Below the pieces are notes generated by a model. It was given only the letters and a program-made list of their open reading frames with translations. It had not been told where the DNA came from and made no database searches. From the IMG/VR virus record IMGVR_UViG_3300007515_000034, positions 1 to 26,494 of that record: a DNA stretch of 26,494 nucleotides; one strand, 5' to 3'. Each line of letters opens with the position of its first letter. The stretch's first letter is position 1. The DNA is from a virus. Positions 1,412 through 18,476 of the stretch are shown in pieces. The position numbers were made by a program, and so were the translations under genes.

Positions 1412-2152
1412 ATGGCAGAAGGATTTTTTAAACATATACCTAATATTGAATATGACTTTAAAAGTGATGGTAGACTTTTTAATGCTAAAGATTTATTTCG
1501 TAAAGTTTCTACTTGGAGTTATCTTCAAGAAGGAATTACAGGATATTCTTATTATAGAGTAACAGAAGGAGAAAGACCTGATGTTGTTGCAGCTAGATTA
1601 TATGGTGATTCAACTTTATACTGGACTTTCTTTTTAGTTAATGAGAATCTACAAGATTTTAATGATTGGCCAAAATCAAATTCACAATTTGTTAAATTCA
1701 TGGATAGAAAATATCCAGGTACTTGTTTAGTTGCTTCAAATTCTACTGATATAGTTTCTTATAATCATGACACAAATACTTCAAGTAAGTTCACATTAGG
1801 AGAAAAGGTTTCACAATCAACAGACATATATGGATTTGTAACAGATGTAAATCCTACACACAATAGAATTACATTAAATAGTGTCACCGGAATTTTTACT
1901 AATGGGGGTACTGCGACAGGAGCTGACTCAGGAAAGAGTTTTACAATATCTTCAGTTGTAGATGAAAAGGATGCAGCACATCATTATACAGATTCAAATA
2001 ATTTTAGGACAACAGTATCAACAAATAATACTGTAATTACAAATGAAAGACATGAAATGAATTTAAATGAAGATAAACATGAAATTAGATATATTCAACC
2101 AGCGTATATTGATAGAGTAGTCAAAGAATTTAGAGCATTAGTGAGAGATTAA
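1412..2152 (+). CDS. gp53: Baseplate wedge protein gp53
   Basis: A 246-aa wedge component, longer than T4 gp53 (about 196 aa). In T4, gp53 ties neighbouring wedges together around the hub. The core is seen at about residues 35-75 as GYSYYRVTEGERPDVVA and LYGDSTLYWTFFLVNE; the YG-x3-LYW pattern and LysM-like strand-helix layout are the family signature. The C-terminus (about 215-246, HEIRYIQP then a helix ending VKEFRALVRD) matches the usual gp53 ending. The extra length is an insert at about residues 126-183 that resembles a small beta-module also found in gp7, gp8 and the DUF4815 protein of this window. It lies 2 nt after the previous stop and 2 nt before the next start, so it is tightly embedded in the operon. 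Confidence 0.88.
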   Translation: MAEGFFKHIPNIEYDFKSDGRLFNAKDLFRKVSTWSYLQEGITGYSYYRVTEGERPDVVAARLYGDSTLYWTFFLVNENLQDFNDWPKSNSQFVKFMDRKYPGTCLVASNSTDIVSYNHDTNTSSKFTLGEKVSQSTDIYGFVTDVNPTHNRITLNSVTGIFTNGGTATGADSGKSFTISSVVDEKDAAHHYTDSNNFRTTVSTNNTVITNERHEMNLNEDKHEIRYIQPAYIDRVVKEFRALVRD

Positions 2153-2154
2153 TT

Positions 2155-3642
2155 ATGGCTATAGCTGATAGCTCAAAACCATTTAGTTATGATTTAGAAG
2201 TTTTAACACTTGTTAATAACGAAGGAGAAGGTTATGACCTTCGTAAAGTTTTTCTTGGAGTTAAAATACATGAATCAATTACATCAAATTTTTTATTAGG
2301 TGAATTAGCTATAGCTGATTCAACTGGTCTATTAGAGAATGCAAAAATATTTGGACAAGAAACTCTTAGAATAAGATTTAAAGCTCCCTTTGGATTAGAA
2401 GATGAAATACATGATGATGATGTAATTGACCAGGTTTTTCGTATCTATAAAGTAGGTCAAGTTCAAAGAGCTGGTCAGAATACTTATATATACAATTTAA
2501 AATTCTGTTCACCAGAACTTATTCAAGCAAAACGAATTAGAGTTAGTCAAGCCTTTAGGGGTTCAATGACTAATATTGCAGGTCAAATAGCAAGAGATCA
2601 TTTAGGAATAGCTATTGAAGATGGAGAGGGAGGTAAACTTGTTCCTTATTTTGAAGTTAGAGAAAAATCACAAGGAGATAACTTTCATGTAGTAGTTCCA
2701 AATTGGAGTGTTAATTATACTATTAACTGGTTAGCATCTCAAGCACAAGGAGTTGATTCGCAAAGTGGATTACAAGATTCCTTCTTTTTCTTTCAAACAG
2801 CTAATGGTGGATATAGATTACAATCATTAGCAAGTATGATGAAGATAGATTATTTAAATGGTGATCCATTTGTTTATACAACTGCCACTATAGCAGACAC
2901 AAAAACTATTCCTTGGGACAATGTAGAAGCTGGTAGAATGGGTATGGGTAGAAGAATACAAAATTATGAAATAGGCTCGACAGCCAATATGTTAGAAGGA
3001 ATAGTTAAAGGGTTGTTTGCTTCAAAACAAATAACTGTTGATAATACTTATCAGTATCTTTCTGAAAGAACATATAGTTACTTGGATAAATTTTATGGTG
3101 GAAAGGACATGGCCATGAATGATTATCCATTAGTCAGAACAACAGATGAAGTTATGCATATAGGAGAAGCAGCATCTGCAGAAGATACGAGTGATTTGGT
3201 CGCTGGTACTTATGCTGAATATAAAAATATAAGTAATTATGGAGATGCACATACAATTTTAGTAAGCGATAGACATTTTGTAAATGATATTGATAATAAA
3301 ATAAATCAAGCTAGTCATAATGCACATTTAGGTTCTGCACAATTAAGACAGGCTGTAACTCAATTATTAAAATATTATTCAATAAATTTATTATTACCTG
3401 TCAGAACTGATATAACTGTAGGTGCTTTAATTAATTTAGAAATAGATGCAGTGAGACCAGGTGAACAAAAAGAAAGTGAAGCTTATTTTCATGGTAAGGG
3501 TAAACATTTAATAACTGATATAATGTGGGAATTGACATTAGATGAATGTAGAGTTAATGTTAAATGTATTAAAGATTCTCTTATTAATGAAATTGAAACT
3601 ACTGTTACAACATTACCAGAACCAATACAAGAGGGATCATAA
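2155..3642 (+). CDS. gp27: Baseplate hub protein, gp27-like
   Basis: A 495-aa protein that probably forms the trimeric hub ring onto which spike and tube attach. The first 130 residues show the hub pattern: LRKVFLGVKIHESI, then LLGELAIADSTGLLE, then FRIYKVGQVQRAGQNTY, then FCSPELIQAKRIRVSQAF. These strands match the tube-like first domain of gp27/gpD hub proteins (established family architecture; the match here is by eye). Residues from about 340 to 490 include IDAVRPGEQKESE and a KGKHLITDI-type strand, usual for the last hub domain. T4 gp27 is about 391 aa, so this version is larger. The gene lies directly before the spike gene, as expected for physical partners; its stop TAA is immediately followed by the next ATG. 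Identification as the hub is firm in context, less so as a direct gp27 orthologue. Confidence 0.75.
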   Translation: MAIADSSKPFSYDLEVLTLVNNEGEGYDLRKVFLGVKIHESITSNFLLGELAIADSTGLLENAKIFGQETLRIRFKAPFGLEDEIHDDDVIDQVFRIYKVGQVQRAGQNTYIYNLKFCSPELIQAKRIRVSQAFRGSMTNIAGQIARDHLGIAIEDGEGGKLVPYFEVREKSQGDNFHVVVPNWSVNYTINWLASQAQGVDSQSGLQDSFFFFQTANGGYRLQSLASMMKIDYLNGDPFVYTTATIADTKTIPWDNVEAGRMGMGRRIQNYEIGSTANMLEGIVKGLFASKQITVDNTYQYLSERTYSYLDKFYGGKDMAMNDYPLVRTTDEVMHIGEAASAEDTSDLVAGTYAEYKNISNYGDAHTILVSDRHFVNDIDNKINQASHNAHLGSAQLRQAVTQLLKYYSINLLLPVRTDITVGALINLEIDAVRPGEQKESEAYFHGKGKHLITDIMWELTLDECRVNVKCIKDSLINEIETTVTTLPEPIQEGS

Positions 3643-4908
3643 ATGTATCAGGGTAGAGATGGATTTTATTGGTTTACAGGTATTGTAGAAGATAGAAATG
3701 ATCCATTGTTTTTAAATCGAGTTCGTGTTAGAATATTCGGTAATCATACATGGGATAAACAAAAAATAGCAACACCAGATTTACCTTGGTGTGAAGTTAT
3801 GATGCCAGTAACATCTCCGTCATTATCAGGTCTTGGTAATACAACACATGGTCTTGTGGAAGGTTCTTTTATAATTGGTTTTTATAGAGATGCTACAGAA
3901 CAACAAGATCCTATAATTATGGGGTCTGTTATCGGAGCTCCAGGAAAGCTTTCAAGAGTAGATGAAACAATAGATAACAATGGAACAAAAAGTTATACAA
4001 AAGTAGATAGAAAAACAACAGAAGGATTTAATGATCCACGATTAGATTCTGAATCTTCTTATGAAGGAACTCCAGATGGAAAAAATCCAGATCATATTCA
4101 AAGAAACTATGGATTAACATTAGCATTAGACAAGTCTCCAAGACGAGATGGAGAAACTAAAGGAGTTTTATATCCGAAAGAAATTTATTATGACGCATCA
4201 TCAGTTAATCTATTGGCTAGAGCTACCGATCATGAATCAGAAAATAATACTCCTGTTAAAGATGCATATCCTGTTCTCACTTTAGAAACTCAAGAGGGAC
4301 CTGGATTAGAAAATTTAGAAGTAGCTAAAACAGAAGGTGAAAACAATACAGCATTAAGAGATGATACTACATATTTAAAACCAAAATATCCATTCAATCA
4401 TGTTCATGAAACAGAATCAGGACACTTAATAGAGATAGATGATACACCAGATTATGAAAGAATACATCTTTATCATAGAAAAGGAACAAGATTTGAAATA
4501 GATAAAGACGGAAATTATGTAGAGAAAATTGTAAAAGATAAATATTCTGTTGTTGCTGGAAATGATTTTGTAACTATAACAGGAGATGTGGTTGTTAATA
4601 TAACAGGTAATGCATATATGAATGTTACAGGAAATAGTACAAGTACTGTTGGTGGTAATCTAAAGGCTGATATTACAGGTACAAGTGATGTAACTTCTGA
4701 AGGTAAAATAACAATTACAGGTAAAGACACAACGGAGATTATTTCAGATACAACAATTACAGGTAAACTTCATGTCACCGATGCACAAACAAATGATTCT
4801 ACTATCACAGCTGAAGGAGAGGTTACTGGGAATGAAGTTAAACTTTCTAAACATACTCATACAATTAGTTCAGGTTCATCAGCTGGAAAGACAAAGAAAC
4901 CTGATTAA
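3643..4908 (+). CDS. gp5: Baseplate central spike, gp5-like, without lysozyme domain
   Basis: A 421-aa spike protein expected to trimerise below the hub and pierce the outer membrane. Residues about 6-103 form the N-terminal OB domain (FYWFTGIVEDRNDPL, VRVRIFG, LPWCEVMMP, GSFIIGFYRD, DPIIMGSVIG), the standard start of T4 gp5 and P2 gpV/VgrG-type spikes. A variable linker follows (about 105-290) with no recognisable T4 lysozyme domain. Residues about 296-400 are a Val/Ile/Thr/Gly repeat (VTITGDVVVNITGNAYMNVTG and on) typical of a triple-stranded beta-helix. Near the end is His404-Thr405-His406, which resembles the HxH motif that binds iron at the apex of P2-type spikes. An AGAGGGA Shine-Dalgarno lies about 9 nt upstream of the ATG, which directly follows the hub stop codon. 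Confidence 0.85.
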   Translation: MYQGRDGFYWFTGIVEDRNDPLFLNRVRVRIFGNHTWDKQKIATPDLPWCEVMMPVTSPSLSGLGNTTHGLVEGSFIIGFYRDATEQQDPIIMGSVIGAPGKLSRVDETIDNNGTKSYTKVDRKTTEGFNDPRLDSESSYEGTPDGKNPDHIQRNYGLTLALDKSPRRDGETKGVLYPKEIYYDASSVNLLARATDHESENNTPVKDAYPVLTLETQEGPGLENLEVAKTEGENNTALRDDTTYLKPKYPFNHVHETESGHLIEIDDTPDYERIHLYHRKGTRFEIDKDGNYVEKIVKDKYSVVAGNDFVTITGDVVVNITGNAYMNVTGNSTSTVGGNLKADITGTSDVTSEGKITITGKDTTEIISDTTITGKLHVTDAQTNDSTITAEGEVTGNEVKLSKHTHTISSGSSAGKTKKPD

Positions 4909-4912
4909 ATGA

Positions 4913-4920
4913 TATAAATA
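4913..4920 (+). promoter_or_regulatory. T4-type late promoter box TATAAATA
   Basis: An exact match to the T4 late promoter consensus, placed in the 17-nt gap between the spike and gp25. With T4 spacing (box at about -13 to -6) the first transcribed base would be 4926, the A of the gp25 ATG. The resulting gp25 message would be leaderless or nearly so. It would start a second unit covering gp25 and gp6. Confidence 0.65.
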
Positions 4921-4925
4921 GTAAT

Positions 4926-5339
4926 ATGGCTCAGTTTAATAGTAAAAATAAAGCATCAAGGGTGGCACGAAGGTGGTTCACAGATATTGATATTAATATG
5001 AAAAATCATCCTATAACAGGAGATGTGGTTTTAAAATATGATTTAAACTCAATTAAAAGAGCAGTAAGAAATTTAATATTAACTAGTCATTATGAAAGAC
5101 CTTTTAAACCAGGTCTTGGTGTTAATCTTAGGGGAATGTTGTTTGAATTAAACAATACAGATTTGTTAGTATTGGAGGACGAAATTAAAGAACTATTAAA
5201 TACTTTTGAGCCAAGAGCAACATTTACAAATGTAATGACTACTAGTGATGGTAATGAATTAGATGTTACAGTTATGTTTAGTGTTGGTAATAGTCCTGAA
5301 CCACATTCATTAGACCTAATATTAGAGAGAGTAAGATAA
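4926..5339 (+). CDS. gp25: Baseplate wedge protein gp25
   Basis: A 137-aa protein of the GPW/gp25 family, close to the usual length (T4 about 132 aa). It connects wedge proteins to the sheath and helps begin sheath assembly. The family pattern is clear: an FTDIDINM start, SIKRAVRNLIL, RPFKPGLGVNLRGMLFE at about residues 58-75, and the hallmark EPR motif within TFEPRATF at about 95-102, followed by a beta-strand ending in SLDLILERV. An exact TATAAATA box ends 6 nt upstream and there is no visible Shine-Dalgarno, so initiation may depend on a leaderless transcript or on read-through from the spike gene. The stop codon overlaps the gp6 start (TAATG), which points to translational coupling. Confidence 0.93.
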   Translation: MAQFNSKNKASRVARRWFTDIDINMKNHPITGDVVLKYDLNSIKRAVRNLILTSHYERPFKPGLGVNLRGMLFELNNTDLLVLEDEIKELLNTFEPRATFTNVMTTSDGNELDVTVMFSVGNSPEPHSLDLILERVR

Positions 5340-7204
5340 TGGCAGTAAAAAGTTCAAACATTAATATAACAGATTTAGATTTTGATCAAGTTGAAACAAG
5401 TTTAAAAGAATATTTAAAAGGACAAACAGTTCTTAAAGATTATGATTTTGAAGGTTCTAACTTATCTATACTTGTAGATTTGTTAGCCTATTCGGCACAC
5501 ACTTCAGCTTTCAATGCAAACATGGTTGCATCTGAAATGTTTTTAGACACAGCACAGATTAGAAAGAATGTAGTGTCAAGAGCAAAAGAATTAGGATATA
5601 CTCCTTCTTCACGAACAGCAGCTAAAGCTACTTTTAATTTAACAGTTAATAGTCCAACAATAGGTGGAGCAACACCAAGCAATCTAACAATTCTTAGAGG
5701 ACATGAATTCACAACAATTTATGATGGAACATCTTATACATTCATTTGCTTAGATGATAAAACAATTACACCAACTGAAGGTGCGTTTAGATTTGATGAT
5801 TTATCTATATATCAAGGTAAATTAGCAACTGATGTTTATAGATATAGTAGCCAGATTGCTAATCAAAGATTTCCAATATTAAATACTAATGTAGATACTT
5901 CAACAATTAAAATAAACATTACTTCAAACAATGTAGTAACATCTTGGTCAAGGGCTGGTGATTTAACTGATGTTACATCAACTTCAACTGTATTTTATTT
6001 ACAAGAAAATGATGATGGTTTATTTGAAGTTTATTTTGGAGATGGTGTAATTGGTAAAGAGCCTATAGATAGTGATCAAATTACTATTTCTTATTTGGTA
6101 ACTGACAATGCTCATGCTAACGGAGCTAAAGTTTTTTCAATGGCTACATCTATTAATGGAAATTCAGATGTAACATTTACAAATACAACTAGTGCTTCAG
6201 GTGGTAAAGATATAGAGACTCTAGATCAGATTAAATTCTCAGCAAGTAAATTCTATACTTCACAAAATAGATTAGTAACAGTAGCTGATTATAAAGCAAA
6301 ATTACAAGACTTATATCCCGGTGCTGATTCAATAGCTGTATGGGGTGGAGAAGATGCTGATCCTATACAATATGGTAAAGTATTTTGTTCTATTAAACCT
6401 TCTCAATATTCAAACAATTTAACAACAGCTGAAAAGACACAATTAAAAAATGATTTAAGTAAATTAAGTATTCTAACAGTAAGACCAGAAGTTATTGATT
6501 CAGAAATACTACAAGTACTAATTTCAAGTAACTTTAAGTACGACCCAACAAAAACATCTCTTACTAGGTCAGCATTAGAAACTTTAGTAAGAACAGCAAT
6601 TATCGCTTACGACAATGACGAACTTTCTGGTTTCGATACATTGTTCAGACATTCGCCTTTATCTAGTAAGATAGATGCTGCAGAGACTTCTATTCTTTCT
6701 AATATCACAACAATTAAATTAAGAAAGAACCACAGCTGTACAGTAGATGGAACGGCAGATACTATGGCTTTAGATTTTGGTAATGCGATATATAATCCAC
6801 ATGCACAACACAATAAAGCTTCTGGTGGGGTATTAACGACAACAGGTTTTTATATTTCAGGAGATGTATCAACACAATACTTTTTTGATGATGATGGAGA
6901 TGGTAATGTAAGACGATATTATATTTCCGGTGGAACAAGAGTATATTCTGATACTACAGCTGGAACAATAACATATTCAAACGGTAAGGTGTCTATAAAC
7001 ACATTGACTTTAGGTTCGACATCTAATACCGATAATTCAATAGATTTCACAGTTATTCCAAACTCAAATGATGTCATTTCAGTTAGGAATCAACTGTTGG
7101 ATATCACTGCAGCGGAGATTTCTGTTACGGGTGTAGCAGATACAGTTGCTAGTGGTGAAACGAGTGCTGGAGTAGGTTATACAACCTCATCTAGTTACTC
7201 CTAA
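5339..7204 (+). CDS. gp6: Baseplate wedge protein gp6
   Basis: A 621-aa protein (T4 gp6 about 660 aa) of the baseplate J/gp6 family, which forms the inner ring of the baseplate wedges. The N-terminal 110 residues are diagnostic: LKEYLKGQTVLKDYDFEGS, LLAYSAHTSAFNANMVASE, then FLDTAQIRKNVVSRAKELGY. The central part (about 225-330) carries YFGDGVIGKEP and VADYKAKLQDLYPGADS, both usual for gp6/gpJ proteins. The C-terminal third has an extra beta-rich part with an acidic loop Asp517-Asp-Asp-Gly-Asp-Gly-Asn523 that could bind calcium. It overlaps gp25 by one base and is followed by an 81-nt gap with two hairpins, the second a likely terminator, so it probably closes the gp25-gp6 unit. Confidence 0.93.
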   Translation: MAVKSSNINITDLDFDQVETSLKEYLKGQTVLKDYDFEGSNLSILVDLLAYSAHTSAFNANMVASEMFLDTAQIRKNVVSRAKELGYTPSSRTAAKATFNLTVNSPTIGGATPSNLTILRGHEFTTIYDGTSYTFICLDDKTITPTEGAFRFDDLSIYQGKLATDVYRYSSQIANQRFPILNTNVDTSTIKINITSNNVVTSWSRAGDLTDVTSTSTVFYLQENDDGLFEVYFGDGVIGKEPIDSDQITISYLVTDNAHANGAKVFSMATSINGNSDVTFTNTTSASGGKDIETLDQIKFSASKFYTSQNRLVTVADYKAKLQDLYPGADSIAVWGGEDADPIQYGKVFCSIKPSQYSNNLTTAEKTQLKNDLSKLSILTVRPEVIDSEILQVLISSNFKYDPTKTSLTRSALETLVRTAIIAYDNDELSGFDTLFRHSPLSSKIDAAETSILSNITTIKLRKNHSCTVDGTADTMALDFGNAIYNPHAQHNKASGGVLTTTGFYISGDVSTQYFFDDDGDGNVRRYYISGGTRVYSDTTAGTITYSNGKVSINTLTLGSTSNTDNSIDFTVIPNSNDVISVRNQLLDITAAEISVTGVADTVASGETSAGVGYTTSSSYS

Positions 7205-7211
7205 ATAATGA

Positions 7212-7229
7212 TCCATGTATATGCATGGA
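7212..7229 (+). other. Hairpin after gp6
   Basis: TCCATG (7212-7217) pairs perfectly with CATGGA (7224-7229) around a 6-nt loop, giving a 6-bp stem 8 nt after the gp6 stop codon. No T-run follows, so it is not a terminator by itself. It may protect the gp6 mRNA end or assist the next hairpin. The region is nearly palindromic, so a protein-binding site is an alternative. Confidence 0.4.
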
Positions 7230-7237
7230 GTAGAATT

Positions 7238-7256
7238 CCCTCATGGTGAGGGTTTT
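7238..7256 (+). terminator. Rho-independent terminator after gp6
   Basis: CCCTCA (7238-7243), loop TGG and TGAGGG (7247-7252) form a 6-bp stem with five G-C or C-G pairs, directly followed by TTTT. This has the stem plus T-run layout of an intrinsic terminator, though the T-run is short and termination may be partial. It separates gp25-gp6 from the gene at 7286. Confidence 0.65.
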
Positions 7257-7285
7257 AACAATGCTAATTTAAGAGGAAACTAAAA

Positions 7286-7747
7286 ATGGCAGATAAAAAA
7301 ATAACCGCGCTTACGGATTTAAGCACAGGGATTGCAGGCGAAGATTTATTGCATGTGATTGATGATCCTTCAGGTACTCCGGTAAACAAAAAGGTTTCAG
7401 TCGCGAATGTATTAAACTACATTCCTACATTCCTAGCCTTTGCACAGGCAGAACAATCATTAACTGGTGCAGGTGCAGCTAATGTTACATCAGCAGTTAC
7501 AGCATTTACTACAAATACTGATAACTCTGGTAACAACGCTGTTACATTGGCTAACGGAACTACAGGTCAAGTTAAGATTCTTTACACTAAAGTAGAATCT
7601 TCTTCTGGACAAACTACTGTAGTTACACCAGCAAACTTTGGTAACGGAACTACTATTACTTTTGATGCAGTTGGCGATTCAGCTATCTTGTATTTCAATG
7701 GTAGTAATTGGATGTTAGTAGGTAACTACGGAGTTGCAATAGCGTAA
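7286..7747 (+). CDS. Small fibre-like structural protein between gp6 and gp7
   Basis: A 153-aa protein of unproven function. The start [15 protein letters not shown] followed by [12 protein letters not shown] resembles the KITxLT...DxLxxVxD attachment segment found at the N-terminus of many marine phage fibre and virion proteins. The rest is Thr/Asn/Gly/Val-rich with alternating beta-strands and ends in an [13 protein letters not shown] strand, like fibre-head or decoration proteins. No signal peptide or membrane segment is visible. It has a good Shine-Dalgarno (AAGAGGAAAC about 10 nt upstream) and lies after a terminator, so it may be expressed separately from gp6. Its first 130 nt contain clearly more CG dinucleotides than most of the window. 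It has no counterpart between genes 6 and 7 in T4. A baseplate decoration or short fibre is the most likely role. Confidence 0.6.
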
Positions 7748-7758
7748 CTAATTAAATC

Positions 7759-10700
7759 ATGCCGATCTTTTACGATAGAATTGCAGATCAGGTCGAGGAA
7801 CTCCTTCCCGAGTTTTATCGGGAAGAAGGACCTCGCTTTGTTTCTTTTATAAAGGCTTATTTTGAGTTTTTAGAAAAAGGACAATTAATTTATAAAGACG
7901 CGGCTGATATTGATTACATTGGTTTAGAAGATGGAACAGTTGCAGGTGAAGCATTTAATGCTAATGGTCAGAGAGGTAATCTTTTACAAGAACCAACAAC
8001 TTATGCTCCATCTTCTGTACCCGATGCAAAACTTAATTATGAACATGATGTTGATTCAGGTGGAACTCAAAAAACATCTTTTGAAAAAGATGAATATGTT
8101 GTAGGTTCAACTACGGGTGCTGTTGGAAGAATTGATGTCATAGGTACAAGTTCAAACCTTTATATTGAACAATTTTCAGAAGCTCAATTTGATATAGATG
8201 AAACTATAACAGGTATGACTTCTGGAATGACAGCCAAAGTGGCTAGTTTCAAAGCTAGTCCTTTACATGCTGCTAATAATCTGTTATCATATGCTGATGT
8301 TGATAAAACATCTGGTGACTTCATAGAGTACTTTAGACGAGACTTTATGCCGTTCATTGATAGAGATGTTCTAGCGAATAAACGATTATTACAAAAGCAT
8401 GTCAAAGATTTGTATCTATCTAAAGGTACAAAAGAATCATACGAGTTTTTATTCAGAATACTTTATGGATTAGAAGCCGAGGTAGTATTTCCCGGTGACA
8501 ATGTTATAAAGCCTTCTGAATCAGAATTCTCTGAGCCTACTGTAATGAGATTATACAGTGCTTCAGATGTAACAAAATACAAAAGAGGATTAATCAAAAA
8601 GATTGAATCAGGTGTAGTTACAACTCAAGCTTATATTAACGATGCATCGGGTATGAGTGGAACTAATGATGGTGCCAATGGTTATGAAATAGAACTAGTT
8701 ACTCCATTTACAGGAACATTTAATGTAGGCGATACAGTTATATTATCTGATAGAGATGGATTTAGAATTGATGCAGAAGCAACAGTTCGAGGTATAATTA
8801 GTGATGTTGATCCTACTGAATCTGGTGTTTATGTTGGGTTAGAAGATGGTTCAGCTGGAGATATAGAAGATATCATTCGTTTAGAAAGTTCTACTTCTAT
8901 TTATATCTTAAATGAAGATGGTGATAATATCTTAATGGAAGATGGAAGTGAACTAATATTTGAACATGCAATCGGTGGAGAAAAATTTCAGGCCATATCT
9001 TTTGAACTAGAAACAGCAACAGGTATAGGACAGATATTACTTGAAACATCAGTTTATGATCAAGATGATAATTTAACAACAGATTATGTTTTAATATATG
9101 AACAAACAGATTTATATGAAGCTTCAGGAGACCCATTATGGAAAGAAGGTCCAGCAACAAGAACAATGGGTGGAGGTCTTTATGAAGAAGGTGCATCACT
9201 AGGTGCATTGTATGAAGAATCAGATACATTTAATTATAATTCTCCACAGGGTGGTACTGCTACTCAATCAATTAATGTTATTGGAGGTATAGGTAGAGGT
9301 ACAGTTACAGATATAATAGTTGATGATGTTGGATCAGGTTATTCAGAAGGAGACAGTTTAGTTTTTGTAAATGCAGACACAGGTGGAGATAATGCAGAGG
9401 CACAAATTAAAACAACTAGAGCCTTTGTATCATTAGAAGCAGGCACATTAAACGAACATACAATTTATTCATATACAGCAACAGCCGGTCAAACAGTTTT
9501 CTCTGGTAGAGATAACGCGGGTCTTGTCATGGGATTTGATCCTAGAAAAGTAAAAGTATATGTTGCTGGTACAGAAAAGACAAGAGAGACACATTTTACT
9601 ACAGATCAATCAGGTGGTAAAATAACTTTAGCATCAGGAGCATCTGCAGGTCAGTTGGTTGAAGTTTATGCTGCTTTCCAAGGTATGAGACTTGAGGATG
9701 CTGATAATCCAAATCCACACCCAGACTCAGGACACCCAGATAATAATTATATAACACAAGAAGATGATGGTGCTATTTCAAGAATACAAATAACACATCC
9801 TGGTGAAAATTACAAGTCTGTACCTAAAGTTTTTATGGGTGGATATATTTATTATGATACAATATCGACCCTGAACTTAGAAACTCATCCTGATGGAACA
9901 ATAGCTCCTGGCAGTAGAATCGGTACAAGATATTCAGGAGCAACTCCTGCTCTTACATTAACAGTAGTAAAACACGACACAGTAAATAAACGAATATTAG
10001 TTTATAAATTACCTACAGATGCATCTGGAGTTCCAACAGGCCAAGTTAAATATCCTGCTACAGGAACAGCATCATTTGAATTTACATTAACACAAACAGA
10101 TGTAACAGCTGGTAGTGGTGCTAAACTATGGGCATTTGGTGAGAACATTGGTTCAGTTAAGAAATTGAAAATGCAAGATGTTGGTCATAAGTTTGAAGAA
10201 GGTGGTATTGGTAATTATAAACAACATGCAGTTCTAAAAGATGTATCTGCAAACCCAATAGTCAACACAACAGTTACAGCTAATCTAACAGGATCAACTG
10301 CAAATGTCAACAAGTTTGATTCAGATAGAAATATATTGTCATTAGATAAAGTTAGAGGTATATTTAATGAGGGAGATTATTGTACAACTAGTGACAGTAA
10401 GAATTTTGTTATTGGTAAAATAAATGCTGCAACGGCTAGAGGTAAATTAAACAGTATAGCATTGTATGATGGAAATTATTTAGATGATAAAGGATTCCCT
10501 TCTGTTGATTCTCAAAGAATTCATGACAGTAAAATTTATCAAGATTATTCTTATAAGATTAAAGTTGGTAAAAGTATTAATGATTATAGAAGTTTAGTTA
10601 AATCATTATTGTCGCCAGCTGGAACAATCATGTTTGGAGAAGTATCTATAAGAAATACAATAGATGCTAAAGCCGCAATATATGATCGTAATTTTGATGG

Positions 10701-12774
10701 TGTAGCGACTACTAGATCATTTATTCCTACATTGATTATTGGTTCAAGAATAGATACAGCGGATTTAATTCAAGAAGATGGAACAATACCAGGTGGTATT
10801 TTGGGACTGAATCAATTAACTTTAACAGGTACTGGAGCTGCAGGAGTTTATACAGGCGTTACTCCAGAAGTACCTTCAGGTGGTTCAGGAGTAGAACTCA
10901 CATTAGAAGTTAATGCAAACAATACTTCATATCAAAATCTTATAATTACAAGTGCGGGTACAGGATATACTGCAGGTGAAACTGTTACTATCACGCAAGA
11001 GATGGTTGGTGGTAGTGGTGATACTGTCTTTGCAACTTTTGAAATAGAATCGGTTGGAGCATCTCATGAAGCAGTGACTGATGAAGTGTTTATAGGTGAT
11101 TCAAATAGATTTAAATTAGAAACAGAAGAAGGTATTGTAACAACAGAAAGATTCTTATGTACAGACGCTACAGCAACCAATCACAATACTCATACAGTTC
11201 AAGATCAAGGTTCTGGACAACCTTATATTCTTGGTACAGATGCAATTGTTGAAAAGGATAAAGATTTATTTGCAAGACAACTAGTAGCTGAAGTTATTCC
11301 ATTGGGTAGTAGAGTACACAAAGAATTAGATATATTTCCACATTGGAATCAACATAAGATTTCATATTCAACATTAAATGCTTCTTTAGCTGTAGGAACA
11401 AGAATTAAAGGAGCGACTTCTGGAGCACAAGGTATTGTAATAGAACATGATACTGCAGCTGATTATGTTATAGTTGATAGAAACCCTAGAGACTATGGAC
11501 CAGGAAGTTCACAATTTACTGGAACAGAGATTATACAAAATAAGGCTGGCTCTACAAACTACTTTACAGCAACATCTATAGATTTACATTGGACACCACG
11601 ATCTTTTGGACAGTCAGGATATGACCTTAATATTCTTAACAGACAAGAGCCATCAGCCATCACTGCAGACACAACAATAACATCAGCGAATCAAAAAATT
11701 AGTAATAGTGTAGAAGGTGGTGGAGATGCATATGATCATACTGATTACTTACCGGGATTCCAAGGTAGAGGTAAAGTATTAGTAGCAAGTGATCATAGTG
11801 AGGCTTATGATTCAGAAATGAGACAAAGAAAAGTTACTATAGTTTCATCTCCAATATACAGTTCAGCAGCTACTCAATCAGGAAGAACATTATCAGCAGG
11901 TAACAATACTAGGACACCACTTAATCAGAAGGGTGCAAGAACAGAAGGAACAAATACGATAGTTGCTGGAGATACAGCACCACCATATCTAGCAATCAAT
12001 GGAACATCATTAAGATTAGATGATATTAAAAATAGTGTAAGTGAATTACCTGGAGATTCTACTATTACAGTATTACAAGATACAGGTAGAGATGATTCTA
12101 ATACAGGTAGAACAACTAATAGAACAGGTGTAAATATATCTAGTGGTGTTAATTGGGGATATAGACCCGCAGGACAGAAACTATACGAATCAACGAATTT
12201 CGTTTCAGAGAATTTAATTTCTGAAGCAGGTGAAACTTTTATAATGGAAGATAATCATGGCCGGGTTATGGGAGAATATTTTGGCCAAGGTGGTATTGTC
12301 TTATTAGAAGATGATACAACTTTATTATGGGAAACAGCAACTATAGTTGATGACACACATTACTTTGTAAGTGAAGAATCAACTCAAGTTGGCTCATTCA
12401 ATATAATAAGTGAAAGTGGAGATAGACTAATAGATGAAACAAACAGTTTACCTTTACTTCACGAAGAAGCACTTATGATTGGTCAGAAAGAATCAAATCA
12501 GGCTGGACCAAGTATAGGTGATTTAAGAGATATGATGTTTACTGAAAATTACAGTATAATGCAGAAAGTTCAACTTGATGGTGGAAGTGGTATATCATCT
12601 GGAGATGATTTATTACTAGAGACTGGAGAACATTTAATTCAAGAGTCTCTTTCAGAAGGAATCAAGATTAGTGATATAAGTACTATATATCCAAACAGAC
12701 TTATTAATGATTTGCAGAGAGAGTATGGAAGAAAGACAAATTTAACTCATTCTGCTGTAATTCAAACAGGATAA
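7759..12774 (+). CDS. gp7: Baseplate wedge initiator gp7, enlarged
   Basis: A 1671-aa protein, far longer than T4 gp7 (about 1032 aa), which nucleates wedge assembly with gp10 and gp8. The first 270 residues carry the conserved start of marine gp7 proteins: FYDRIADQVEELLPEFYREE, FVSFIKAYFEFLEKGQLIY, then FIEYFRRDFMPFIDRDVLAN and LYLSKGTKESYEFLFRILYG near 190-235. A second conserved helix-rich part lies near 910-990 (YSYKIKVGKSINDYRSLVKSLLSPAG). Between and after these are many inserted beta-modules: TSGA-type units (about 114-165, 836-895, 1210-1262), GSGY/GTGY units (about 518-538 and 1060-1079), and acidic strings such as ILMEDGSELIFE (about 361-404, 443-490, 1486-1574, 1616-1634). No Shine-Dalgarno is evident. 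A 7-bp hairpin lies 46 nt into the coding sequence. Confidence 0.82.
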   Translation: MPIFYDRIADQVEELLPEFYREEGPRFVSFIKAYFEFLEKGQLIYKDAADIDYIGLEDGTVAGEAFNANGQRGNLLQEPTTYAPSSVPDAKLNYEHDVDSGGTQKTSFEKDEYVVGSTTGAVGRIDVIGTSSNLYIEQFSEAQFDIDETITGMTSGMTAKVASFKASPLHAANNLLSYADVDKTSGDFIEYFRRDFMPFIDRDVLANKRLLQKHVKDLYLSKGTKESYEFLFRILYGLEAEVVFPGDNVIKPSESEFSEPTVMRLYSASDVTKYKRGLIKKIESGVVTTQAYINDASGMSGTNDGANGYEIELVTPFTGTFNVGDTVILSDRDGFRIDAEATVRGIISDVDPTESGVYVGLEDGSAGDIEDIIRLESSTSIYILNEDGDNILMEDGSELIFEHAIGGEKFQAISFELETATGIGQILLETSVYDQDDNLTTDYVLIYEQTDLYEASGDPLWKEGPATRTMGGGLYEEGASLGALYEESDTFNYNSPQGGTATQSINVIGGIGRGTVTDIIVDDVGSGYSEGDSLVFVNADTGGDNAEAQIKTTRAFVSLEAGTLNEHTIYSYTATAGQTVFSGRDNAGLVMGFDPRKVKVYVAGTEKTRETHFTTDQSGGKITLASGASAGQLVEVYAAFQGMRLEDADNPNPHPDSGHPDNNYITQEDDGAISRIQITHPGENYKSVPKVFMGGYIYYDTISTLNLETHPDGTIAPGSRIGTRYSGATPALTLTVVKHDTVNKRILVYKLPTDASGVPTGQVKYPATGTASFEFTLTQTDVTAGSGAKLWAFGENIGSVKKLKMQDVGHKFEEGGIGNYKQHAVLKDVSANPIVNTTVTANLTGSTANVNKFDSDRNILSLDKVRGIFNEGDYCTTSDSKNFVIGKINAATARGKLNSIALYDGNYLDDKGFPSVDSQRIHDSKIYQDYSYKIKVGKSINDYRSLVKSLLSPAGTIMFGEVSIRNTIDAKAAIYDRNFDGVATTRSFIPTLIIGSRIDTADLIQEDGTIPGGILGLNQLTLTGTGAAGVYTGVTPEVPSGGSGVELTLEVNANNTSYQNLIITSAGTGYTAGETVTITQEMVGGSGDTVFATFEIESVGASHEAVTDEVFIGDSNRFKLETEEGIVTTERFLCTDATATNHNTHTVQDQGSGQPYILGTDAIVEKDKDLFARQLVAEVIPLGSRVHKELDIFPHWNQHKISYSTLNASLAVGTRIKGATSGAQGIVIEHDTAADYVIVDRNPRDYGPGSSQFTGTEIIQNKAGSTNYFTATSIDLHWTPRSFGQSGYDLNILNRQEPSAITADTTITSANQKISNSVEGGGDAYDHTDYLPGFQGRGKVLVASDHSEAYDSEMRQRKVTIVSSPIYSSAATQSGRTLSAGNNTRTPLNQKGARTEGTNTIVAGDTAPPYLAINGTSLRLDDIKNSVSELPGDSTITVLQDTGRDDSNTGRTTNRTGVNISSGVNWGYRPAGQKLYESTNFVSENLISEAGETFIMEDNHGRVMGEYFGQGGIVLLEDDTTLLWETATIVDDTHYFVSEESTQVGSFNIISESGDRLIDETNSLPLLHEEALMIGQKESNQAGPSIGDLRDMMFTENYSIMQKVQLDGGSGISSGDDLLLETGEHLIQESLSEGIKISDISTIYPNRLINDLQREYGRKTNLTHSAVIQTG
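7804..7825 (+). other. Strong hairpin inside the gp7 start region
   Basis: CTTCCCG (7804-7810) and CGGGAAG (7819-7825) form a perfect 7-bp stem around an 8-nt loop, within codons 16-23 of gp7. It stands out in A+T-rich DNA. It is not followed by a T-run. It could slow early elongation or modulate gp7 translation, or be a by-product of the coded peptide. Confidence 0.4.
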
Positions 12775-12778
12775 CTGA

Positions 12779-12786
12779 TATAAATA
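12779..12786 (+). promoter_or_regulatory. T4-type late promoter box TATAAATA
   Basis: An exact match to the T4 late consensus, 5 nt after the gp7 stop and in a 50-nt gap. The predicted start near 12792 gives a leader of about 33 nt, with AAAAGGGA as a Shine-Dalgarno before the gp8 ATG at 12825. This is the best-placed promoter in the window and should drive gp8 and the genes after it. Confidence 0.75.
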
Positions 12787-12824
12787 ACTATAACAATTAA
12801 TTAAAAACCAAAAGGGATATAACA

Positions 12825-14273
12825 ATGGCAGCAATAATAACTGAAAAATTTCGTCTGAACAACGCGAAGCAGTTTGTCGAAGATATCGGAGAAGGTGCAT
12901 CCGTTGCATATTCTTTTATCGGAAGAGGACATGCGTGGACAGACGATTCAACTCCGCCAACCCCTGTAGATGGACCAAATGATGAATTTGATGCCTATCG
13001 TAATATGGTGGCAATGAAGAAGATCGCGACAACTGATGTTTCACATGCCGTTGTAAGAAGGGATTGGACGAGTGATACAACCTATGACGAATATCGTCAT
13101 AACTATTCATCAGGTAACGCAGCAAGTTCTGGAGCCACAACTTTGTGGAGCGGTACTTACTTTGTAATTACTGATGATTATAATGTATATAAGTGTTTAA
13201 ATAATGATGGTAATACGGCATCAACTGTAAAACCAGATCATACAACACTTGCAACTCCAACAGAATCAGATGGATATCAATGGAAATTTATGTATTCGAT
13301 ATCAGCATCTGATGTAATTAAGTTCGTAACTAACGATTTTATACCTGTTAAAACACTAGGTGCTAAAGCAGCAGTGATAGGTTCAGTCGGTGGATTAGGA
13401 ACAACAGCTTCAGATGATGGTACAGCACAATGGGATGTTGAGAACGGAGCAGTAGACGGAGCTCTTGATAGAGTAAGAGTAGTCGCAGCAGGTTCTGGAT
13501 ATACGGCATCAACTACTACAGCTAACATAGCTATTAGAGGTGATGGTACAGGTGGTGTAGCCACAGTAGTCACAAATGGCTCAGGTGGTGTCGCATCTTG
13601 TACAATTACAACTGCAGGAACAGGTTATACTACAGCCTACTTGGCTAATGAAGATATACCTGGATTTGACAATGCTAATCAGAAAGCTGATGGAACAAAT
13701 GCATCTGCGAATATAGAATTTCTTATTCCACCTAAACATGGTCACGGAGCTGATCCTATAGAAGAATTGGGTGGTAACTATGTAATTCTAAACTCAAGAT
13801 TAGAGTATGGTGAAGGTTCTGGTGATTTTCCAACTGATAACGATTTCAGACAAATAGGTGTAATAGTAAATCCAACTAATTACGGTGGAAATACATTATC
13901 TTCAACAGCAACAATGAGAGCATATAAAACTATGACTTTTAGTTCATCTAATTTTAGTGCACCAACAGTTGACACTTTAATAAGAAACGCAGCTTCAGAA
14001 TCAGCAACAACTGCAGTAGGTGTTGTGGTATCAGTAGATTCAACAAATAGAATCATTTCATACTTACCATATCCTAACGAAGCAGGTGGTATAGTAGCTT
14101 TCTCAACTAGTGAAACTATTAGAAGTGCATCAGGAACTCATGGAACAATCAGTGCGTTAGCAAATGAAGAAGTTGCTAGGCACTCTGGAGATATAATTTA
14201 TCTAGAGAATAGAGGAGCTGTTTCGAGAGCTTCTGATCAGATTGAAGATATTAAACTTATAGTCGAAATGTAA
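12825..14273 (+). CDS. gp8: Baseplate wedge protein gp8
   Basis: A 482-aa protein (T4 gp8 about 334 aa). In T4, a gp8 dimer binds gp7 and gp10 in the outer wedge. The first 175 residues are the conserved marine gp8 type: IITEKFRLNNAKQFVEDI, ASVAYSFIGRGHAW, VVRRDWTSDTTYDEYRH near 83-100, and YKCLNNDGNTAS then YQWKFMYSIS near 123-157. The middle (about 217-280) holds two GSGY/GTGY beta-units and the C-terminal part (about 383-445) a TSGA-like unit, which explains the extra length. The end (DQIEDIKLIVEM) is usual for the family. It has its own late promoter box and Shine-Dalgarno. The first 300 nt contain about 18 CG dinucleotides by hand count against about 4 in 13861-14160. Confidence 0.87.
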   Translation: MAAIITEKFRLNNAKQFVEDIGEGASVAYSFIGRGHAWTDDSTPPTPVDGPNDEFDAYRNMVAMKKIATTDVSHAVVRRDWTSDTTYDEYRHNYSSGNAASSGATTLWSGTYFVITDDYNVYKCLNNDGNTASTVKPDHTTLATPTESDGYQWKFMYSISASDVIKFVTNDFIPVKTLGAKAAVIGSVGGLGTTASDDGTAQWDVENGAVDGALDRVRVVAAGSGYTASTTTANIAIRGDGTGGVATVVTNGSGGVASCTITTAGTGYTTAYLANEDIPGFDNANQKADGTNASANIEFLIPPKHGHGADPIEELGGNYVILNSRLEYGEGSGDFPTDNDFRQIGVIVNPTNYGGNTLSSTATMRAYKTMTFSSSNFSAPTVDTLIRNAASESATTAVGVVVSVDSTNRIISYLPYPNEAGGIVAFSTSETIRSASGTHGTISALANEEVARHSGDIIYLENRGAVSRASDQIEDIKLIVEM

Positions 14274-14282
14274 GGGAATTAA

Positions 14283-17200
14283 ATGGCGCAGAATACAGAT
14301 TTAAATGTATCGCCTTATTATGATGATTATAGCGAATCTAAGAATTTTCATAGAATCCTATTTCGTCCAGCTAATGCGATACAAGCAAGAGAACTAACTC
14401 AACTACAGAGTATTTTACAAAACCAGGTTGAGAGATTTGGTAATCATCTCTTTCAAGAGGGTGCTCTTGTTATGGGCGGAACAACAACAGTTAATAAAGA
14501 ATATTATGCTGTTAAAGTCAATGACGCTAATCCCAACTCTAATGGAACTGCAACTGCAGAAACATTCAGAGCTGCAGCCGTTGGAAAATATTATCAAGGT
14601 AAAACATCTCAAACAGTAGGTAAGTGTATTAACACTGCTGCCAAAACTACTGACGGAGATCCATTAACTTTATTTTTCACTTATGTTAAATCTGGTAATC
14701 CTACTGGAACAACTTATTACGATTCATTTACAGACAACGAAGAAATAGAAGAAGTAGCTTTAGACGCTAACGGAGATTATTCAACTTCTGGTAATTCTGA
14801 TAACGAATTTAAAACAATCGAAACAGACTCAACATTTACAGGTTCAGCTGTAACTGTTCGTAGTGGTATATTTTATACAAGAGGTTTCTTTGTAAGATGT
14901 GATGAACAAACACTTATATTAGATAAGTATTCTAATACTCCTACATATAGAATTGGTTTAGTTATTGGTGAAACAGTAATTGATTCTGCAGATGATACAA
15001 CTTTATTAGATAATGCAACAGGTACAACTAATGAAAATGCACCTGGTGCCAATAGATTAAAAATATCATTAACATTAGCTAAGAAAGCAGTTAGTGGTAC
15101 TCAAGACATAGACAACTTCCTTGAATTGTGTAGAGTAGAAGCTGGTATTATTACAAAACAAGTTGAAGTAACTGCATATGCTACACTAGAAAAGACATTA
15201 GCTAGAAGAACTTTTGATGAAAGTGGTGACTATGTTGTTAAACCATTTCAATTAGAATTAAGAGAACATTTAAATTCAAGAGTTAATAATGGTGTTTATC
15301 TTTCAACAGATGCGACTACACCAGGTGACGAATCTAAATTTGTCGCAATCATGTCTCCAGGTAAGGCCTATGTTAAAGGACACGAAGTAGATAAGCCTTC
15401 ACAAAATTTAATTACTATTTCAAAAGCAAGAACTACGGAAGATGCAGGAGCGTTAGCTGTTCCTTTTGAAATAGGAAATTATTATACTGTAAATAGTATC
15501 TTTGGTCAACCAGAATTTGGTACGGGTGATTCAGCAGTATATCCTTATGGAACTATAGATTTATATACAGATGCAAAAGCTAGTCTAGGAGATTCATCAG
15601 CTTCTGGTGATTTAATAGGTAAGGCTAGAGTAAGATACTTTAACTGTACTAGTCCTACAGTAGGCTCAGGAGTTCATACAGCGGCGTCAGTACACCGTAT
15701 ATACTTGTTTGATGTTCGTATGTTCACTAAACTTACAGTTAATGGAACATCATTAGCATTAACTGCAGGACAGAGAATTAAAGGAGTAACTTCAGGAGCT
15801 AAAGCAACAGTAGCGGTTAGTAGAGCATCTGCAACAGCAACAACAGTTTGGGTAATGGATGTAGAAGGAACATTTACTACAGAAGTAATTAGAAAAGAAA
15901 GTGATACAAGTGGTGGTCCAACAATTTCAGCTGTTAGATCATATTCAACTGATAGAGTAAGAAGTCTTTATCAAGCATCAAGAACAAGTAACTCAGCAAA
16001 CTTTACAGCTGATGTAGTTACAACAGACAGTCAATATATATTAACAGGAACAGTAATTGGAGCATCAGGTGATGCAACACAAACAGGTGTTAATACTAAA
16101 TTTAGTCAAGAATTAAAAGAGGGAGATGTTATAGTAGCTCCTTCAGGAACAGAAAAGATTGTATTATCAATTACAAGTGATACATCAATAGAGCTGACAG
16201 GAAATGGTGTCGCTGAGAACGGAAAGTATATCAGACAAAGAGCTCAATTACAAGAACAAGAAAAAACAATAGCTATCGGTCCTACACCTAAAGATTTTGT
16301 ATCATCTCTAACACCTAATTCAATGGTAGTTAGAAAACAAGCTACAGTAACATTAAGTAGTGGAACAGGTACAATAACAGCTGCAAATGATGAAGTATTA
16401 GTAGCAGAAGATAATAATGATTATATGATTACTATTATGGAGTCAAATGAAGGTTCAGATGCAGATGAAGGAGATGTTGTTGATATAGGAGAAAATCTCT
16501 CTGGTCAAACACTTGCAGTAGCTGGTGGTTCAGGTGGAGCCATGACAATTACAGCTGCAGGTTCAACACCTATTACTGATGGAGATCAACTTAAAGTTGT
16601 ATACGCTGTTACTAAAGATGTAGCTAATAACAATGGTACTAAGACATTAAGACGATCAAGAGGAGTTAAAGTATCAACACCAGCTTCAACAGGTGGTGCA
16701 AGTACAATATACGGAACAAATTATAATGATGAAATTATAACATTAGGTGTTCCAGATGTCTATGCAGTAAGAGCCGTATTTGAATCAAACGATACAACAG
16801 ACGCGTTACCACCCAAATTAACAGTAGCAAGTGGAATGGGAGCTTGTCAACCTGGTGATAAATTGACAGGTAGTGTTACAGGAGCAATAGGTAGAGTTAT
16901 TCAAAAATCAGGTAATGATATTTATTTTTATTATCAGAATAGAAATGTTAGATTTACAACTAGTGATGTTATAAAAAATGAAATGAATTCAGATTCAGCT
17001 ACTGACAGTAGACAATGTACAGCAATTACAATAGATTCAAAAGATATTTCAGAAAACTTTGTTTTAGATGATGGTCAAAGAGATGGATATTATGGATTGG
17101 CTTCAATTAAAAGAAAAGCAGGAAAGCCGGCTCCACAAGCAACAATATTAGTTATATTTGATTACTTTACATCAGGTGGTGGAAGTTTTTACACAGCAAA

Positions 17201-18476
17201 TTCATATGGTGGTGTTGCAGAAGGATCAACAGAAATGAGTTGGGGTAATATTCCAAGTTATATACCTAGTGTGATTGATCCATTAGGACTAGAGGCTGAC
17301 GGAGTAATTGAATTATCAGACGCAGTAGATTTTAGAAGTCATGTGGGTAGATTACACGATCCTTCAGGAGCATTTAATGTGTCATCTCAAACTGATGTTT
17401 CAGATATTAACTCTCAACCATTAGCTTATGATTCAGATAGTTTCACAGGAACAGGTGCAGTAGTGATAGACTTACCACAAAGTGAAACATCATTATCAAC
17501 TACAGCTATGACACACTATTTACCAAGAATAGATAAGATTTCATTAAGTTCAGAAGGTGGATTCCTTCATTCACAAGGTACTGCATCAGACACACCAGCA
17601 GCACCAACAACACCAAACAATTCAATATTATTACATACTTTATGGATTTCTCCATACACATTTGATATTGATGAGATAGGTGTTTCTTCAGAAGATCATA
17701 AACGATTTACAATGAAAGATATTGGTAGAATACAAGGTAGAGTTAGAAACCTTGAAAGAGTAACAAGCTTTAATGTATTAGAAATGCAAACAAGTATGGA
17801 AAACATTAAAGATGCTGACGGATTAGATAGATTTAAGTCAGGATTTGTAACCGATAACTTTAGAGGACACAAAGTAGGTAATGTAGGACATATAGATTAT
17901 AAATGTTCTATTGATAGAGAACCAGGAACATTAAGGCCACAACACAATACTAGATTTATTGATATTTCTATAAACGCTAGTTCTTCATCAGGTTATCAAA
18001 AAACTGGTGATTTAATTACATTACCTTATACAGAAACAGCTTATGTGACTATTGATAAGGCTTCTACTACGGAATTTGTTAATCCATATGATGTAGTACT
18101 ATTTAATGGTACAGTTACATTGAGTCCTTCAAAAGATATGTGGTTCGACACAGAAAGATTACCAACTGTTAGAAGAACAGTCGAAGGAGACTATGATGCA
18201 GTAGTTGCAGGTTTAGGTAATGCTTTAGGAACAGTTTGGAATAACTGGCAAACAGATTGGGTAGGTGAACCTATAGTTGAAGTTCAAGTAGAGAGAACTG
18301 GCGGTCATCCCGGTCGAGTTAGAGTACCTGGTAGGAGACCAACAACAACTAGAAGAACACCGCGTAGACAAGAAAGAGGTAATTCAGCAAACAGACAAGG
18401 TAATCGTGGTGGAGTTTCTAATCAAGCCGGTGGTGGTAGAAATATGTCTGGTCGTGGATGGGAGCAGATGAGATAA
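14283..18476 (+). CDS. DUF4815-type baseplate structural protein with Arg-rich tail
   Basis: A 1397-aa virion protein. The first 60 residues (LNVSPYYDDYSESKNFHRIL, FRPANAIQARELTQLQSIL, then VERFGNHLFQEGALVMGG) are the typical start of DUF4815 proteins, which marine T4-like phages carry where T4 has genes 9-10; a peripheral baseplate role is inferred from that position. About residues 350-380 have VAIMSPGKAYVKGHEV, another family motif. Residues about 494-555 and 855-900 are TSGA-type beta-modules. The region near 950-1200 (VIELSDAVDFRSHVG, MTHYLPRIDKISL, FTMKDIGRIQGRVRNLERVT) belongs to the conserved C-terminal part. The last 58 residues (about 1340-1397) are rich in Arg and Gly, with 14 Arg and no Lys. 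It follows gp8 by 9 nt with TAAGGGA as Shine-Dalgarno. Confidence 0.82.
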   Translation: MAQNTDLNVSPYYDDYSESKNFHRILFRPANAIQARELTQLQSILQNQVERFGNHLFQEGALVMGGTTTVNKEYYAVKVNDANPNSNGTATAETFRAAAVGKYYQGKTSQTVGKCINTAAKTTDGDPLTLFFTYVKSGNPTGTTYYDSFTDNEEIEEVALDANGDYSTSGNSDNEFKTIETDSTFTGSAVTVRSGIFYTRGFFVRCDEQTLILDKYSNTPTYRIGLVIGETVIDSADDTTLLDNATGTTNENAPGANRLKISLTLAKKAVSGTQDIDNFLELCRVEAGIITKQVEVTAYATLEKTLARRTFDESGDYVVKPFQLELREHLNSRVNNGVYLSTDATTPGDESKFVAIMSPGKAYVKGHEVDKPSQNLITISKARTTEDAGALAVPFEIGNYYTVNSIFGQPEFGTGDSAVYPYGTIDLYTDAKASLGDSSASGDLIGKARVRYFNCTSPTVGSGVHTAASVHRIYLFDVRMFTKLTVNGTSLALTAGQRIKGVTSGAKATVAVSRASATATTVWVMDVEGTFTTEVIRKESDTSGGPTISAVRSYSTDRVRSLYQASRTSNSANFTADVVTTDSQYILTGTVIGASGDATQTGVNTKFSQELKEGDVIVAPSGTEKIVLSITSDTSIELTGNGVAENGKYIRQRAQLQEQEKTIAIGPTPKDFVSSLTPNSMVVRKQATVTLSSGTGTITAANDEVLVAEDNNDYMITIMESNEGSDADEGDVVDIGENLSGQTLAVAGGSGGAMTITAAGSTPITDGDQLKVVYAVTKDVANNNGTKTLRRSRGVKVSTPASTGGASTIYGTNYNDEIITLGVPDVYAVRAVFESNDTTDALPPKLTVASGMGACQPGDKLTGSVTGAIGRVIQKSGNDIYFYYQNRNVRFTTSDVIKNEMNSDSATDSRQCTAITIDSKDISENFVLDDGQRDGYYGLASIKRKAGKPAPQATILVIFDYFTSGGGSFYTANSYGGVAEGSTEMSWGNIPSYIPSVIDPLGLEADGVIELSDAVDFRSHVGRLHDPSGAFNVSSQTDVSDINSQPLAYDSDSFTGTGAVVIDLPQSETSLSTTAMTHYLPRIDKISLSSEGGFLHSQGTASDTPAAPTTPNNSILLHTLWISPYTFDIDEIGVSSEDHKRFTMKDIGRIQGRVRNLERVTSFNVLEMQTSMENIKDADGLDRFKSGFVTDNFRGHKVGNVGHIDYKCSIDREPGTLRPQHNTRFIDISINASSSSGYQKTGDLITLPYTETAYVTIDKASTTEFVNPYDVVLFNGTVTLSPSKDMWFDTERLPTVRRTVEGDYDAVVAGLGNALGTVWNNWQTDWVGEPIVEVQVERTGGHPGRVRVPGRRPTTTRRTPRRQERGNSANRQGNRGGVSNQAGGGRNMSGRGWEQMR

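Follow-up and report, generated by a model that had tools for sequence, protein, structure and literature searches.

The marine virus record IMGVR_UViG_3300007515_000034 of IMG/VR encodes a small protein domain, here called the TSGA module, with eight copies spread over four non-homologous baseplate proteins. A ninth copy is doubtful. The window analyzed here is the entire virus record, 26,494 bases long, and it is probably a fragment of a T4-like marine myophage. The module forms one family of about 57 residues. The four host proteins are gp53, a gp7-like protein, gp8 and a DUF4815/VrlC protein, and in gp53, gp8 and DUF4815 the module is an insertion into an otherwise conserved protein. Among the very abundant marine T4-like phages, several baseplate proteins far exceed the length of their T4 counterparts for reasons that have been unexplained. 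A family with defined insertion sites makes this size question testable and accounts for some of the length of gp53, gp8 and DUF4815.

The family pattern is FxxGExVxGxTSGAxGxV...LxVxxVxGxFxxGExIxGxTS, and the consensus of the core is FTVGETVTGSTSGATGTVIKIDGTSNRLYVKDVTGTFTTGETITGSTSTTTGTISS. The sequence-only reading had pointed to seven segments of this kind, one in gp53, three in gp7, one in gp8 and two in DUF4815. All seven are present in frame within about 60 nucleotides of where it had placed them. All copies are on the plus strand. Module a covers gp53 residues 126-183 (1787..1960). The gp7-like protein has module b at residues 107-164 (8077..8250), module c at residues 832-889 (10252..10425) and module d at residues 1209-1274 (11383..11580). 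It also has a divergent eighth copy, module h, at residues 721-782 (9919..10104), which was not among the seven and was found by a hidden Markov model (HMM) search started from d. Module b is also present in gp7 of HTVC008M, Mosig and Melnitz. Module e is at gp8 residues 376-446 (13950..14162). It has diverged in the window, and the same site has the canonical TSGA form in distant gp8s (loci L069, L072, L074 and L076). DUF4815 has module f at residues 492-552 (15756..15938) and module g at residues 855-918 (16845..17036). The doubtful copy is candidate i, at DUF4815 residues 97-160 (14571..14762). It is recognizable in 24 relatives (E<1e-3), and the aligned region is also found in DUF4815 of the Ackermannviridae.

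Three kinds of comparison place these segments in a single family, as the sequence-only reading had proposed. Each segment was aligned with its own orthologues (31-69 sequences), and the resulting profiles were scored against each other with hhalign. The probability exceeds 50% in 11 of 21 module pairs. It does so in 5 of 784 module-control pairs, each of which includes copy h or a tile overlapping a module. When iterative HMM searches are started from any one of a, b, c, d, f or g, they reach all seven segments at E<=1e-3. Their weakest outcomes are gp8, which is near the threshold from the c and f starts, and b, which is a partial match from the d start. The strictest test uses a profile built without any copy from the host protein under test. 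These host-held-out profiles recover eight of eight sites with scores of 28-60, and the best control (neither h nor candidate i) scores 21. The probabilities are 98% for a, 96.7% for b, 96.9% for c, 95.7% for d, 88% for e, 97% for f, 98% for g and 96.4% for h. Candidate i scores 16.5 in the window, which is inside the control range. Site i was also considered as the ancestral source of the modules, and here too its window score is no better than the controls.

One can imagine a scenario where unrelated beta segments rich in glycine, threonine and serine converged on a similar pattern. The motif is of simple composition, and four copies are weak when single sequences are compared. In a single-sequence leave-one-out test d and g score above all of 200 shuffled windows and b and e above about 98% of them, but a, c, f and h fail. 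Since this test is weak, the family is secure only once homologues are included, and profiles enriched with orthologues replaced the single-sequence profiles because these are too weak for a, c, f and h. When about 4,900 proteins are reversed or shuffled, they give no HMM match at E<=1e-3 in any round, and fiber proteins rich in the same residues give no module match in the iterative search. The recovery of eight sites by profiles that have never seen the tested host protein also speaks against convergence. Together these controls rule out an artifact of convergence or composition, and we consider independent origins very improbable.

The module has an internal structure of its own. An hhalign comparison aligns its first half with its second over 20 columns at 96% probability, a score not attained in any of 150 column shuffles. 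The module is therefore an internal duplication of two half-motifs. AlphaFold2 models were made of gp53 (mean predicted local distance difference test score, pLDDT, 80.5) and of DUF4815 residues 440-960 (mean 79.7), which together cover copies a, f and g. In these models the module is predicted to fold as its own small closed beta-barrel. Module a has a pLDDT above 90, with strands at residues 132-136, 139-147, 152-159, 167-170 and 176-184. Five strands appear in identical order in all three copies, and pLDDT is mostly above 90 in g. The N-terminal barrel of F1-ATPase (7njp_B) matches gp53 102-173 with a Z score of 5.2 and g with 5.5 (56 residues, 2.4 A). EF-Tu (2c78) matches gp53 102-184 with a Z score of 5.0 and f with 5.3 (69 residues, 2.6 A). 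Because the barrel matches start 10 to 25 residues ahead of the sequence motif, the structural domain is probably near 75-80 residues. Barrel matches at Z scores of 5 to 6 are a similar arrangement and not kinship. The expectation that the copies would share a predicted fold thus holds for a, f and g, by strand order and by barrel matches of low Z score, and it rests on these three. A further small barrel lies between f and g at DUF4815 583-655 (16029-16247). It matches a tail-tube protein, other phage proteins and the F1-ATPase N-terminal barrel at Z scores up to 7.7, and its score against the module profile is borderline.

The insertions are clearest where relatives have an empty site, and the empty sites for a, e and g have conserved flanks on both sides. 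In gp53 the module sits between the N-terminal part and a conserved C-terminal segment, and the site is empty in T4 (196 residues), Vibrio phage D480 and HTVC008M (168 residues). In gp8 it stands directly ahead of the C-terminal HSGxxxYxENR segment. T4 (KAEKDYYDPED, residue 291 onward) and D480 are continuous across this point, and the aligned Kyanoviridae gp8s have the module. The gp8 of Rhizobium phage RHph_I46, a soil member of the Pootjesviridae, has an apparent degenerate module at the same site (L167:13635-15074), and insertion into gp8 may thus be older than the marine family. Site g of DUF4815 is empty in HTVC008M, Mosig, Salmonella phage STML-13-1 and Vibrio phage BX-1 and is occupied in the window, Melnitz and P-SSM4. 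For the two Ackermannviridae, site f does not appear in the alignment. For gp7 the empty-site comparison is limited, since only about 40 residues of T4 gp7 can be aligned. The proposed insertion into non-homologous baseplate proteins is thus borne out by relatives with empty sites for gp53, gp8 and DUF4815.

It had also been proposed that the module explains why gp53, gp7 and gp8 are longer than in T4. This is correct for gp53, which has 50 extra residues (246 versus 196). It is correct for about half of the excess in gp8 (482 versus 334), where much of the remainder comes from a second insertion that is unrelated. It does not carry over to gp7, where only the core of about 40 residues can be aligned. 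A second mini-motif, GxGYxxGxxV followed by a glycine-rich GxxA stretch, was seen in gp8 (about 13491-13725), in gp7 (about 9331 and about 10957) and in an 825-residue protein (18478-20955, at about 19858). The GxGYxxGxxV region of the window gp8 is likewise absent from T4 gp8.

The distribution of the module was examined in about 160 viral loci, where many of the homologues are fragments. By HMM it is present in 64 of 65 homologues of gp53, 86 of 94 of gp7, 65 of 72 of DUF4815 and 42 of 72 of gp8; the remaining gp8 homologues have diverged copies that are visible by alignment. One further match is in a fragment assigned to another protein. No module was found in the homologues of gp6 (98) and gp5 (109). 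On three contigs of 129-146 kb (G001, G002 and G008) the matches are only in reading frames of the four host-protein sizes. Whole-record scans found the module in HTVC008M, Mosig, P-SSM4, Syn33, S-RSM4, S-SSM7, ACG-2014f, AG-345-F15 and Melnitz. It is also present in Sinorhizobium phage phiM12 and weakly so in Agrobacterium phage Atu_ph04. The same scans found none in T4, JS98, D480, I46 (at the threshold used), STML-13-1, BX-1, SPG24, Cygsa01 and Bhz51.

The module occurs more widely than the sequence-only reading had claimed. P-SSM4 has a copy in the neck protein gp14, within a C-terminal part that is absent in such form from T4 gp14. A tblastn search with an artificial consensus of the module gave no matches. 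The same search with a real cyanophage copy matched 152 records from cyanophages and marine sources, and their most frequent annotations are gp14, neck protein or head closure. The gp14 copies of cyanophages mean that the family is not confined to the baseplate. This may explain a wrong transfer of annotation. The gp7 homologue of HTVC008M (L164:33435-36485) is annotated "head closure Hc2", and this label is likely an error, perhaps one that arose through the module shared by gp7 and the gp14 family (phrog_460). The idea that phrog_460 is itself a mislabelled gp7 was considered and rejected; the gp14 family, which carries the module in cyanophages, is the better reading. P-SSM4 has several modules in a gp7 of 7312 residues (L165, L173), and its T4-GC399 wedge protein and further P-SSM4 proteins have the module too.

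The module had been described as mobile, and its presence in several host proteins makes it tempting to imagine a domain that still moves between genes by recombination or gene conversion. Such a domain should leave copies that resemble their neighbors in the same genome. The nearest relative in another locus is at the same site for 573 of 576 modules, and for 572 of 576 when matches of at least 60% identity are ignored. For none of 488 copies is a sister copy in the same phage closer than the corresponding site in other phages. Module a of the window, for example, scores 182 against its own orthologues and 14 against its best sister copy. The same-site neighbors and the absence of any closer sister copy mean that the copies stem from old events and were inherited in place. 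The remaining argument for movement was a DNA 13-mer, AGAATTAAAGGAG, shared by gp7 and the DUF4815 protein and taken as a sign of kinship. It is a chance repeat, as 117 different 13-mers recur in the window, and the recent duplication inferred from it is rejected. We give present-day mobility almost no credence, even less than independent origins.

We argue for an old module that serves structural expansion and contacts in the outer wedge, and we put the probability of this at roughly 0.55. A small barrel would have spread into loops of the wedge proteins in the marine T4-like lineage (Kyanoviridae). Each copy would then have been fixed at its site and vertically inherited. The modules may widen the outer wedge and add contact surfaces among gp53, gp7, gp8 and the DUF4815 layer. 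In T4 there are 6 copies of gp7, 12 of gp8 and 6 of gp53, and gp7 and gp8 are peripheral (PMC3004832). With these copy numbers there would be at least 42 modules per baseplate, plus those on DUF4815, whose VrlC relatives are considered components of double-layered baseplates (PMC7029224). Independent barrels in wedge loops that are kept at most sites and are not uniformly fast-evolving favor the structural role. Several points weigh against it. The position in the particle is carried over from T4, and T4 gp53 sits centrally with gp6 and gp25, which makes it less certain that every module lies on the outside. The copies in cyanophage gp14 show that a function specific to the baseplate is not the whole story. 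The fold is known from predicted models, and Z scores of 5 to 6 may reflect no more than a common arrangement. The contact function itself is something we infer.

Two other roles should be considered. The modules could be an adhesive decoration that projects from the baseplate like immunoglobulin-like (Ig-like) domains, binds weakly to cell-surface glycans or particles and holds the phage near its hosts. Their spread over several virion proteins does parallel Ig-like domains and Hoc (PMC10385173, PMC10684548), and one DUF4815 site was gained or lost inside one virus family. However, the copies are internal insertions that were fixed long ago and not swappable appendages at the termini. No module was found in the fiber-type proteins of the window, and a Pfam scan of 48 module members gave no match to a carbohydrate-binding family. 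Adhesion might also be expected to leave uniform hypervariability, and this is not seen across gp53, gp7, gp8 and DUF4815. Relative to the rest of the host protein the module evolves faster in gp8 and DUF4815, about equally in gp53 and slower in gp7. We consider adhesion unlikely. It is just as unlikely that a stable, tolerated barrel was duplicated into permissive loops and, without serving any specific function, persisted through drift or constructive neutral evolution. This would account for a site g that is occupied in Melnitz and P-SSM4 and empty in their relatives HTVC008M and Mosig, and for sites whose sequence has drifted strongly, such as e in gp8. It does not sit well with retention of the module in nearly all gp53 homologues and in most of those of gp7 and DUF4815, fragments included, or with gp7 copies that are more conserved than the rest of gp7. 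A more speculative scenario, which we consider quite improbable, is a common socket. All the baseplate copies and the cyanophage gp14 copy would bind one partner (one another across proteins, a small protein of the phage, or host surface sugars of a single class), and this single interface would coordinate the four wedge proteins in assembly or in the contraction switch.

The host proteins, all four on the plus strand, are part of a baseplate operon in which gp53, gp6, the gp7-like protein, gp8 and DUF4815/VrlC have family support. The names gp48, gp27, gp5 and gp25 for the remaining early genes are assigned from gene order. Fiber-type proteins follow downstream. The relatives of the window in the public phage set include Kyanoviridae, namely cyanophages, pelagimyophages and the methylophage Melnitz. 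The wedge protein gp53 (1412..2152) matches PF11246 (1.4e-9) and phrog_232, and its whole AlphaFold2 model matches T4 gp53 (5iv5_BF) with a Z score of 10.4 over 153 residues at 4.9 A. The wedge protein gp8 (12825..14273) matches PF09215 (1.5e-18) and phrog_438 (1e-127). The DUF4815/VrlC baseplate protein (14283..18476, 1397 residues) matches PF16075 (3.2e-56) and has a solved homologue, 9euf (E 6e-21). The gp7-like wedge protein (7759..12774, 1671 residues) matches PF23786 at 27.8 bits, where the cut-off is 27, and has a core of about 40 residues in common with T4 gp7 720-758 (E 2e-5). Pelagimyophages are said to lack T4 gp7 (PMC7029224). Against that statement stand this core match and a weak TIGR02242 match of the same protein (the region 7759-8537 was noted).

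No description of the module was found in the literature, in a search confined to openly licensed papers. No Pfam model covers it, and NCBIfam has none named in the host proteins. PHROG families match it, as it is present in their members. Searched against PDB sequences, the module profile found nothing significant (best E 0.056), and the DUF4815 chain was not reported. The solved or classified relatives are those of the host proteins: T4 gp53 (PF11246), T4 gp8 (PF09215) and the DUF4815 protein ORF65 in 9euf (PF16075). The T4 proteins do not have the module.

Two groups of small barrels resemble it in part. The first half of the module is similar to the KOW pattern of SH3-like barrels (PF00467), but the module differs in its duplicated GExI half and in belonging to virion proteins. 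Among the 48 members scanned against Pfam there is no significant KOW match; 3 members match weakly (best E 0.022), and there is a weak match to ribosomal uL24 (E 0.39). The second group is EF-Tu domain 3, eIF2-gamma domain III and the N-terminal barrel of F1-ATPase. Identical solved chains were matched independently by the gp53 and DUF4815 copies with Z scores of about 5 to 5.8. However, no sequence relation to them was found, and at such low Z scores the likeness is one of arrangement only. The structure matches listed for the modelled modules are closed barrels, a list that by itself does not exclude another fold such as the Ig beta-sandwich.

Another comparison is with the Ig-like domains of phage virion proteins, T4 Hoc among them (Fraser et al. 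2006, as cited in PMC10385173 and PMC10684548). In both cases one small beta domain is found in several non-homologous virion proteins and is dispensable for the core fold of its host. The Pfam scan of the 48 members gave no match to an Ig-like family. The module is predicted to be a small closed barrel with an internal duplication and thus probably not an Ig sandwich. It is internal in gp53, gp8 and DUF4815, fixed by site and concentrated in the baseplate wedge. The TSGA module thus behaves like the Ig-like domains yet differs from them: it is a promiscuous virion beta domain with another predicted fold, an internal placement and fixed sites.

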